IMG/VR virus record: IMGVR_UViG_3300033143_001703
Location: 1 to 20,098 of that record
Reading direction: 5' to 3' (one strand)
Source of the DNA: a virus
DNA: 20,098 bases
The notes under the pieces are model-generated. The model was not told the origin of the DNA and ran no database searches. It was given only the letters and a program-made list of their open reading frames with translations. The position numbers and the translations under genes were made by a program. Of this stretch, positions 2,603-5,358 are shown piece after piece (position 1 is the stretch's first letter; each line of letters begins with the position of its first letter).

Positions 2603-5008
2603 ATGACGAATGAAACCAGCATGCCCGGCATCACTCAAAGACTCAAAGCAGCATTTTCAAGTGCACGAGAACGAGTAGGTGTAGGTAGCATCAGTGGGCC
2701 TAATAAAAACAATGACATATACAAAGCAGTCATACCGAATTTTCTATACAAACCACCATATGGTTACCCAAGATTTGTAGACATACCGGAAATTAGAAGG
2801 CTGGCAGCTACGCCGTTTGTTAACATGGTTATTAATACAATAGTTAACGAAATAGCAGCTGTTGAATGGGATATAGTGCCTAAAGATGGTAGTGAAGTAT
2901 CGGACTCTGAAATAAAGAGAATAAAAGATTTCTTTAATGATCCTAACAATACAAAAGAAAACTTTGACGAAATGATACGTAAAGTAGTCGTCGATATGCT
3001 TACAATAGACTCAGGAGTATTCGTGAAGGTATTTAATTTAAAAAGAGAATTCTCACAGCTGTACGTAAGAGACGGGGGAACTTTTACTAAAAATCCTGAT
3101 ATATATGGTACGTTTGAAAATAGAGCAGAGTTTGTATTCATAGATGAGTGGAATACAATGGACAAGGAAGAACTAGAAACATACTTTCAAGATAGGCCTG
3201 CTTATTTTCAATATGGATGGTCAACTGGTGCTAGGCCTATGCCATTCGGAACAAGAGAAATAGTTTACATGATGTTAAACCCACAACCAGATTCAATTTA
3301 CGGAAGATCACCAATGGAAGCACTTCTAACAACTGTACAAATGTTAGTGTATGGAATTGAACACAACTTAGAATATTTCACAGATAACAATATACCAAAA
3401 GGAATTATAGAAGCCGTTGGTATGAACTCTCAGGATATTAAAGATTTTAAACAACAGTGGAAAGACCAACAGAGGATCAAAGACGAAAATGGGAACTGGA
3501 GAAATAGATGGTACAATATGCCTATGCTAGGGACTAAAGCAAATTTCCATAGATTACAATTTTCTAATGCAGAACTAGAACTTATAGGACAACAGAAATG
3601 GTTCTCTAAATTAGTATGGGCATGCTTCGGAGTAACACCAAGCGAACTAGGATTTACTGAAGATTCAAATAAGTCAACAGAAATAATTCAAAGCAGAGTG
3701 TTTAGAAGAAAGGCAATACGACCTATTTTAAAATCATTGGAATTTCACATTAATGCTGAAATAGTCTGGCAGGAATTTAACGAAGATGCGGCATTCCAGT
3801 TTGATACATATGATCTAGAAGAAGATATACACAGACACACGCTGTTTGAAATGCAACTTAGAAACGGAATAAGAACAGTAAACGAAGTCAGAGAAGATAT
3901 GGGCCTAGAAACAGTTGAAGGTGGGGATGACATACGTAAAACAACTGGCTCAATGTTTAATCCATTCGATGAAGATAAAAAAAAACTAAAGATAACTGAA
4001 GAAGACAATATGGATCCTGATAAAAAGCCACCTGAAGATAAAGCTATGAATACAACAATGTCAATCATACCAGGACCCTTTGAAAGAATAACCGAAGTTA
4101 AACTTGAAAAGATTCTAATTAAATTATTGAAGTTAAAAAAGAAGAACGTAGACAACGTTGTAGAGTCTATGAATATGCCGAATAAACTCTCTGAAATAAA
4201 ATCTGAGTTGTCTGATAAATTTGAAGGAGAAATTGATTTAAGTGAAGCTTCTGAAGTTGTTAATAAAGCAATACAAGAACAATTTCTAACAGGTGTAGAA
4301 GACGCCGGGAAACAACTTAATATGAATTTCGTACCTGACAGACGTGCTATAAAATTCTTACAGGATCATGCTTTAGAAAACATAAAGGACATGTCAGAAG
4401 AAATTAAAAACGATATTAGGGCAGAATTAGAAAGGGGTATGATTAACGGCGAGGGAATACCACAAATGAAAGCTAGGGTAAATAAAATATTCAAAGCAGG
4501 AATAGTTAGAGCAACAGCAATAGCAAGAACTGAAACTAACCGGGCCAGCAACATGGGACACTTAGACGGGTACAAACAGGGTGGAGTTGAAAAAAAGAAG
4601 TGGGTAGCAGCAATGGACAATAGAACATCATCTATATGCAGAAGGCTCAACGGAAAGACTGTTGGAATAAATGAAGATTTTGACGATTCTATAACAGGGT
4701 GGGAAGGAAAGGTACCACCAGCTCATGTTAATTGTTTGCTTAAAGATACTAATATTAGAACTAAAACAGGAATTAAGAAAGTACAGGATATACAAATAGG
4801 AGACAATGTTTTAACTCATAACAATAGATATAGAGAGGTTACAGGTACTATGAATAATGAAAGTGATTTTTATTATGAAGTTGAGGTAGGTACAGGTAAG
4901 AATAAAAAGAAACTGAAAATTACAGGGGATCATCCAGTTCTTACAAACAATGGCTGGAAATTAGTTAAAGATTTAGAAATAAACGATTTTGTGATGGCGA
5001 TGAAATGA
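2603..5008 (+). CDS. Portal-MuF head protein fused to an N-terminal intein half
   Basis: 801 residues in three parts. Residues about 25-440 are a phage portal protein (NPQPDSIYGRSPMEAL, then KWFSKLVWACFGVTPSELGF). The portal forms the dodecameric DNA channel and nucleates the head. Residues about 500-710 are a MuF / SPP1 gp7-type minor head domain (ATAIARTETNRASNMG, WVAAMDNRTSSICRRLNG, VPPAHVN). Residues 711-801 are the front half of an intein: Cys1 block A (CLLKDTNIRTKTG), then block B with TGDHPV. The ORF stops just after block B, and the rest is in the next ORF in the -1 frame. The joined extein would be 722 residues. The ATG has no clear ribosome site but lies downstream of a TATA-like box. 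A portal fused to MuF is uncommon, since they are usually adjacent genes. Confidence 0.9.
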   Translation: MTNETSMPGITQRLKAAFSSARERVGVGSISGPNKNNDIYKAVIPNFLYKPPYGYPRFVDIPEIRRLAATPFVNMVINTIVNEIAAVEWDIVPKDGSEVSDSEIKRIKDFFNDPNNTKENFDEMIRKVVVDMLTIDSGVFVKVFNLKREFSQLYVRDGGTFTKNPDIYGTFENRAEFVFIDEWNTMDKEELETYFQDRPAYFQYGWSTGARPMPFGTREIVYMMLNPQPDSIYGRSPMEALLTTVQMLVYGIEHNLEYFTDNNIPKGIIEAVGMNSQDIKDFKQQWKDQQRIKDENGNWRNRWYNMPMLGTKANFHRLQFSNAELELIGQQKWFSKLVWACFGVTPSELGFTEDSNKSTEIIQSRVFRRKAIRPILKSLEFHINAEIVWQEFNEDAAFQFDTYDLEEDIHRHTLFEMQLRNGIRTVNEVREDMGLETVEGGDDIRKTTGSMFNPFDEDKKKLKITEEDNMDPDKKPPEDKAMNTTMSIIPGPFERITEVKLEKILIKLLKLKKKNVDNVVESMNMPNKLSEIKSELSDKFEGEIDLSEASEVVNKAIQEQFLTGVEDAGKQLNMNFVPDRRAIKFLQDHALENIKDMSEEIKNDIRAELERGMINGEGIPQMKARVNKIFKAGIVRATAIARTETNRASNMGHLDGYKQGGVEKKKWVAAMDNRTSSICRRLNGKTVGINEDFDDSITGWEGKVPPAHVNCLLKDTNIRTKTGIKKVQDIQIGDNVLTHNNRYREVTGTMNNESDFYYEVEVGTGKNKKKLKITGDHPVLTNNGWKLVKDLEINDFVMAMK

Positions 5009-5319
5009 AATGGAAATGTATTCAATGTGGAAAGGAAAGGGAAGATTTTCCTTATTTAGCTAAAAAAAGGAAATATTGCTCTGCTAAATGTCAAATGTTT
5101 TATGAATACGAAAACGGTATAAGAGACCCATTTAAGATAATAAAGAAGGCAATAAAGGCATCTCAGAAAAGAATGAAAAATGATAAATGTCATGTTAAGA
5201 ATGAATTTGTATTTTTGAAAGTAAAAAACATTAAACAAATTCCAACAAAATCAGAGGTATATAATTTTTCAGTAGCAGAAGACGAAAGTTATGTAGCTAA
5301 TGATATTATTGTTCACAAT
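4733..5319 (+). mobile_element. Divided intein inserted in the MuF domain
   Basis: The insertion begins at Cys1 (codon 4733-4735) and ends at the His-Asn pair (codons 5314-5319), with Cys+1 at 5320. Removing it rejoins PPAHVN to CRSRIVAV, the usual conserved end of MuF domains. The N-half is 91 residues with blocks A and B (TGDH). The C-half is 105 residues with block F (VYNFSVAEDESYVAN) and block G (DIIVHN before C). All splice-site residues of a class 1 intein are present. The reading frame breaks between B and F, at the place where homing endonucleases normally sit, through an ATGA stop/start overlap at 5005-5008. No LAGLIDADG or full HNH motif is seen. Confidence 0.85.
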
Positions 5320-5358
5320 TGTAGGAGCCGTATAGTTGCAGTGTTGGAGGACAATTAA
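5005..5358 (+). CDS. C-terminal intein half with zinc finger, plus last 12 MuF residues
   Basis: 117 residues starting at an ATG that overlaps the TGA of the portal-MuF ORF. Residues 1-35 form a treble-clef-like zinc finger: CIQC at 5-8 and CSAKC at 25-29, with the KRKYCS signature seen in zinc fingers of HNH-type homing enzymes. A basic helix follows (residues about 43-62), then intein blocks F and G ending VHN at residues 103-105. The last 12 residues, CRSRIVAVLEDN, are the end of the MuF domain. With no ribosome site of its own visible, it is probably translated by termination-reinitiation. It can only supply the MuF tail if it trans-splices with the upstream half. Confidence 0.85.
   Translation: MKWKCIQCGKEREDFPYLAKKRKYCSAKCQMFYEYENGIRDPFKIIKKAIKASQKRMKNDKCHVKNEFVFLKVKNIKQIPTKSEVYNFSVAEDESYVANDIIVHNCRSRIVAVLEDN

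Follow-up and report, generated by a model that had tools for sequence, protein, structure and literature searches.

How does a virus obtain a complete head protein when the gene that encodes it stops inside an intein? This question is raised by IMG/VR virus record IMGVR_UViG_3300033143_001703, of which we analyzed positions 1 to 20,098 (20,098 nucleotides, hereafter the window). An open reading frame (ORF1) for a portal-MuF fusion ends within an intein, and an overlapping second frame (ORF2) carries the other end of the intein and the last residues of MuF. Judging from sequence, the MuF part of the fusion very probably holds a natural split intein that splices in trans; it would have arisen by capture of an HNH nuclease, later spread, and decayed in the window. 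The features of the locus are as follows, with IntN and IntC denoting the N- and C-terminal intein halves.

2603-5008, +: ORF1, portal, MuF and IntN, 801 residues; stop codon TGA at 5006-5008
2603-4732, +: N-extein, portal-MuF fusion, 710 residues, the last of which are PPAHVN
4733-5005, +: IntN, 91 residues, with Cys1 (4733), block B TGDH and the C-terminal end NDFVMAMK (profiles, alignment, AlphaFold2 model)
5005-5008, +: ATGA overlap, ORF1 stop shared with ORF2 start; also found in L010, L037, L129, L130 and L167 (our handles for related loci)
5005-5358, +: ORF2, zinc finger, IntC and C-extein, 117 residues
5005-5184, +: zinc finger (CxxC..CxxxCQ), the N-terminal part of an HNH nuclease and what remains of it
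5182-5193, +: HNH-deletion scar, KCHxK tail of the HNH kept (alignment with five intact HNH-IntC ORFs)
5200-5319, +: IntC, VYNFSV..DESYVANDIIVHN, ending in His104-Asn105 of ORF2 (TIGR01443, PF14890)
5320-5355, +: C-extein CRSRIVAVLEDN, Cys+1 (5320), last 12 MuF residues; matches intein-free MuF tails

Two intein halves in two reading frames

An earlier reading of the DNA letters (the sequence-only reading) had described both ORFs with their overlap and had placed an intein half in each. Indeed, both frames are present, and profiles of Hint and intein C-terminal families matched the two halves. In ORF1, the portal and MuF domains matched the Pfam profiles Phage_portal (PF04860, 7.8e-31) and Phage_Mu_F (PF04233, 2.3e-17), and the ORF matched the portal family phrog_2662 at 6.7e-74. 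IntN matched Hint_2 (7.7e-7), Intein_splicing (5.7e-6) and TIGR01445 (7.3e-4) among Pfam and NCBIfam profiles. IntC was recognized by TIGR01443, intein_Cterm (5.2e-7; 29.7 bits, cut-off 15.6), and by Intein_splicing PF14890 (5.5e-8). The two halves complement each other on PF14890, where they match separate stretches, 56-94 and 102-155, of its 155 positions. An AlphaFold2 (AF2) model of IntN had a predicted local distance difference test score (pLDDT) of 76.5, and its best PDB matches were inteins, with gp41-1 first (probability 1.00, but E 0.004 and a modest TM of about 0.4). The gp41-1 family is also among the best IntN matches by sequence profile.

The splice residues are as expected of an intein. 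At the N terminus, a nucleophile at position 1 and a TxxH block B are present as Cys1 and TGDH; at the C terminus, His-Asn followed by Cys, Ser or Thr is present as VHN^C. These residues had been reported as intact, and all of them are found in the window and kept in the related split lineages. Excision is predicted to join PPAHVN to CRSRIVAVLEDN, which would give a product of 722 residues (710 + 12). That ORF2 consists of a C-intein and a MuF tail is correct for its last part; its first 60 or so residues are an HNH zinc finger, not intein.

A fixed insertion site with empty alleles

The intein lies in a conserved site of MuF for which empty alleles exist. A complete MuF end without an intein was found in about 74 related loci, not all independent, in the survey of relatives. 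One of these, L001, is 47% identical over the N-extein, and its MuF runs uninterrupted through PPSHVNCRSTVVF. Since intein-free MuF ends read through, the intein can be placed exactly between Asn and Cys of the conserved motif: intein-free relatives carry PPxHVNCRS at the very place of insertion, in agreement with the earlier statement that excision restores a PPAHVN-CRSR end.

The same site also holds unsplit inteins. L169, from a phage, has a 133-residue mini-intein whose IntC is 65% identical to that of the window over 40 residues. The contiguous MuF inteins of L005, L006 and L169 share the HN^CRS end site, each within a single uninterrupted ORF. Contiguous MuF inteins are present in annotated phage genes (Gordonia SchottB/Nordenberg, Vibrio 1.266.O) as well as in L005-L007 and L169. 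The first residue of the L005 MuF intein (positions 30-2060) seems to be Ala and not Cys (PPRHFN^AIAKG), a feature of class 2 inteins.

The split is conserved in six lineages

Is the break real? The same split occurs in six divergent virus lineages: the window, L010, L037 (with the near-identical L038), L129, L130 and L167. In the latter five, the N-half runs for 88-91 residues to a TGA, and the second ORF begins with an ATGA over that stop. N- and C-halves with their exteins thus sit in separate ORFs, both conserved, and Cys1, TxxH, His-Asn and Cys+1 are retained in all six lineages. Compared pairwise among the window, L010, L037, L129 and L130, the MuF, IntN, zinc-finger and IntC parts are 36-70% identical. 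In L129, MuF is a stand-alone gene with no portal fusion.

That the intein is truly one open frame, disrupted by a recent frameshift or by a mistake in sequencing or assembly, would be suggested by the 5-base tandem repeat ATGAAATGAAATGG at the ORF1/ORF2 junction (window 5000-5013), since slippage could create such a repeat and move the frame. The five other lineages, on separate contigs and mostly from separate samples, share the same stop/start overlap without the repeat. Comparison of these sequences excludes an error or a recent mutation as the source of the split, and we give this explanation almost no weight. The sequence-only reading had named a single uninterrupted frame as the observation that would speak against it; the overlap in the five other lineages counters this. 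Since the repeat is absent from them, it is apparently coincidental, and the 5-base duplication was rejected as the cause of the split in view of L010, L037, L129, L130 and L167. Quite improbable, too, is programmed frameshifting, by which ORF1 and ORF2 would be made as one chain and the intein would splice in cis. The frames do overlap, and ORF2 is in the -1 frame relative to ORF1 in all six lineages. However, there is no common slippery sequence (the codons before the stop in five lineages are GCG ATG AAA, AAA ATA AAA, GTG ATG TTA, AAG GTA AAA and TAT ATA AAA), and the common element is instead the start codon: the free-standing HNH genes described below begin with an ATG at this position of their zinc finger, too. 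Recoding of the stop codon was rejected, because the ORF1 frame soon meets more stops and ORF2 is in another frame. Finally, the halves may no longer splice, with the truncated MuF-IntN being functional and ORF2 a leftover of an HNH gene. A C-extein of just 12 residues and the loss of the HNH would fit this, but the window has kept all catalytic residues and the CRS tail despite nuclease decay, as have all six lineages, and we consider such a loss very unlikely.

Expression and predicted splicing

The preferred reading, a split intein that splices in trans, calls for two polypeptides. ORF1 would be translated as portal-MuF-IntN, and ribosomes finishing at the TGA would restart at the overlapping ATG to make ORF2. 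IntN and IntC would then associate, join Asn710 of the N-extein to the Cys of the C-extein, and release the intein pieces, leaving the spliced protein; we infer this trans-splicing step from the conserved residues. Termination-reinitiation at the ATGA appears to be the likeliest way of making ORF2. Shine-Dalgarno sequences are strong for most window genes (many near -10 kcal/mol), but that of ORF2 is weak, at -4.8. They are also weak or missing before the second ORF of L010 (-0.1) and L129 (-4.0 kcal/mol), and good in L037 and L130. The overlap, together with the weak signals in the window, L010 and L129, supports the earlier suggestion of probable translational coupling.

A nuclease fused to the C-intein

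The sequence-only reading had noticed that the intein is broken at the usual endonuclease site, and relatives indeed have an HNH nuclease there. It had overlooked the HNH-IntC fusion of these relatives, and this is the most informative part. In five of the six lineages, the second ORF encodes in one frame a zinc finger, a NUMOD3-like segment (identified by eye and not through a profile), a complete HNH and IntC. The HNH core matched PF01844 in L010 (9.5e-13) and L037 (8e-11), and alignment places the same core in L129 and L130. ORF2 of the window is 46-60% identical to the HNH-IntC ORFs and matches the HNH endonuclease family phrog_1271 at 1e-4. In the alignment, an in-frame loss has removed the stretch of ORF2 between residue 60 or so and the KCHxK end of the HNH; the catalytic core is not present, and the zinc finger and KCHxK tail remain. 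The first 60 residues of ORF2 are thus what is left of a nuclease. The splice residues are retained although the nuclease has decayed.

The same zinc finger is found in free-standing genes. Among the collected loci, its profile matched only second ORFs of split inteins and ORFs directly after intein-free MuF genes. A free-standing HNH with this zinc finger directly follows an intein-free MuF in 12 related loci: L033, L051/L104, L067, L090, L091, L096/L097, L098, L099, L100, L102, L107/L108 and L132, the last added separately from the profile search. The zinc finger of the window is 67% identical over 49 residues to the free-standing HNH of L090. In L107, an ATGA again joins the stop of MuF to the start of the HNH. 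The free-standing genes are of two catalytic types, both preceded by this zinc finger. The free-standing HNH of L132 (3010-4582) ends in ..SFILIPILIE, similar to the MuF end ..CSLIAILIE; this end is possibly a duplicated tail left by insertion.

Proposed origin and spread

We propose that the split began when an HNH homing gene, free-standing like those that directly follow MuF in this virus group, inserted into a MuF mini-intein at the canonical endonuclease site without losing its start codon. IntN would then stop at the HNH start, and the HNH would be fused in frame to IntC, giving MuF-IntN and HNH-IntC. The unit would spread by homing among divergent viruses to the same MuF site, and the window would be a decayed copy, its catalytic core deleted later and its splicing residues kept. 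On an unrooted HNH tree, four MuF split inteins fall by their HNH parts into a single clade (89/90) that excludes the free-standing L091 and L107. On a 90-row MuF tree, five changes are required to explain the five split copies known at that point; the starred branches force all five. Since the HNH parts form one clade while the MuF rows need separate changes, the composite fits a single origin and later horizontal spread to a fixed site, as in homing. The scatter of split copies on the MuF tree lends indirect support to a putative cleavage of the intein-free MuF site by the HNH of L010 and L037. One gene family shows the empty site, the free-standing HNH, the unsplit mini-intein, the composite and the decayed copy.

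Several points weigh against this account. Splicing, translational coupling and homing are all predicted from sequence. The AF2 model of ORF2 is confident for residues 1-45 only and gives no usable C-intein model, and its PDB matches are weak zinc fingers. Since Shine-Dalgarno-like sequences precede ORF2 in L037 and L130, translation of ORF2 may not always depend on coupling. On the origin, the zinc-finger tree is too short to be decisive, and the combined IntN and IntC tree is poorly resolved; because of this, capture of a free-standing HNH is a step that we infer. The origin may possibly have been the reverse, with the free-standing HNH derived from the intein HNH. Such genes would be escapees from intein HNHs upon intein loss, a reading that concerns the origin only and is compatible with an unrooted tree on which the intein copies and the nearest free copies each group. 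We find it unlikely, since the free-standing copies are more numerous and more diverse (they comprise two catalytic types) and show no trace of an intein at their C-termini.

A split of the same design appears a second time. A split intein in a gp10-like neck protein consists of IntN and then HNH-IntC in an overlapping ORF, with overlaps of 11 and 7 bases, at the following places.

L115, 1318-2722: gp10-like split intein
L164, 3304-4547: gp10-like split intein
L165, 3504-4747: gp10-like split intein

Taken together, it is reasonably probable that these loci belong to a mobile class of split inteins, in which a captured HNH on the C-intein homes the unit between archaeal viruses and trans-splicing protects the head gene, that the design arose again in the gp10-like gene, and that the window is a stage of decay.

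Relation to known systems

Phage genes that are broken at a split intein and associated with an endonuclease are already known (Dassa et al. 2009, as cited in PMC10448857 and PMC6892783; phage MIJ3). The fractured phage-like genes that Dassa and colleagues reportedly described in 2009 have adjacent split-intein halves with a separate VSR-like endonuclease gene between them. They share with the present locus the adjacent halves, each with half an intein, the endonuclease at the break and the phage-like sequences. Unlike them, the six split lineages have no separate gene between the halves: in five the HNH runs on in frame into IntC, and the window has lost it, so that there are two ORFs with a conserved ATGA overlap. 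In Pseudomonas phage MIJ3, DNA polymerase B likewise contains a split intein, and an HNH endonuclease lies where it is broken (PMC6892783). It differs in having three ORFs (153, 154 and 155), with the HNH separate (orf154), in one phage of a bacterial host and in a polymerase gene (PMC6892783). The view that adjacent halves set this intein apart from most split inteins did not stand, since fractured genes and MIJ3 show that adjacency is not unusual in phages.

The gp41-1 and related phage split inteins (PDB 6qaz) are among the best matches of IntN in sequence and the best in structure; crystallized gp41-1 has no endonuclease part and belongs to another host protein. The Gordonia, Vibrio and L169 inteins are likewise in MuF, but in one uninterrupted ORF. 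Free-standing homing endonucleases that target group I intron sites are known (Zeng 2009; Bonocora and Shub 2009; as cited in PMC10448857). They resemble our proposed route, in which a free-standing endonuclease first targets the site that a splicing element occupies and then joins that element; the known cases concern group I introns, and ours would concern an intein.

A split intein in the portal/MuF of an archaeal virus had been called undescribed. MuF inteins as such are known in annotated phage genes, so this part needs correction; the archaeal-virus setting is new within the reach of our search. A literature search beyond whose reach most subscription papers lay found no published MuF intein or archaeal-virus split intein. 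As far as our tools reach, what is new is an HNH fused in frame to IntC with its own start over the IntN stop, conservation of the split across six lineages, the archaeal-virus setting, the series of stages and the gp10-like repeat.

The locus bears on how inteins become split, how endonucleases enter inteins, and whether split inteins still move. Why homing endonucleases always enter inteins at one site has been posed as a puzzle (PMC6801210). The locus would be a rare record of a splicing element becoming split yet still moving between viruses, and since the gene family holds apparent successive stages in living viruses, each step is testable. The portal-MuF of these viruses is marked by its sequence as probably assembled from two polypeptides, and the new naturally split inteins of archaeal viruses are candidate tools for protein engineering.

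Host

The setting had been read as an archaeal tailed virus, and the nearest cellular relatives agree with this. Profile relatives of portal-MuF in genome contigs lie in three archaeal metagenome-assembled genomes (MAGs), two of them Woesearchaeota; no intein was found in any of the three in a profile scan of genome contigs. Among 371 genomes sampled from the phylum to which one of these archaeal relatives belongs, 13 had portal-MuF matches, two of them strong. The host is probably a DPANN archaeon, and only probably, because binning of viruses into MAGs is uncertain.

Other inteins in related loci

A long endonuclease-like ORF lies on the opposite strand in the middle of the contiguous MuF inteins of L005 (873-1673, -), L006 (3993-5051, -) and L007 (3913-4971, -). 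That of L005 matched DUF559 at 6.6e-6, above the cut-off, and that of L006 has HTH domains and a nuclease-like tail. The intein linker in these three loci would be the complement of a nuclease gene. A different site is occupied in L117 (1027-3291), where an unsplit mini-intein lies inside the portal domain of a relative (..IIARDG^C ... SN^STFTKNPD).

TerL genes also carry inteins. In L118 (1670-2302, +1 frame; intein ORF from 1372) and L002 (1-413), the open frame crosses an HNH homing endonuclease gene on the same strand in another frame. The TerL inteins of L119 (348-2156) and L122 (1378-3180) are LAGLIDADG-like and lie on contigs that also carry the split MuF inteins of L010 and L037, so that these contigs have two inteins per virus, one in TerL and one split in MuF.
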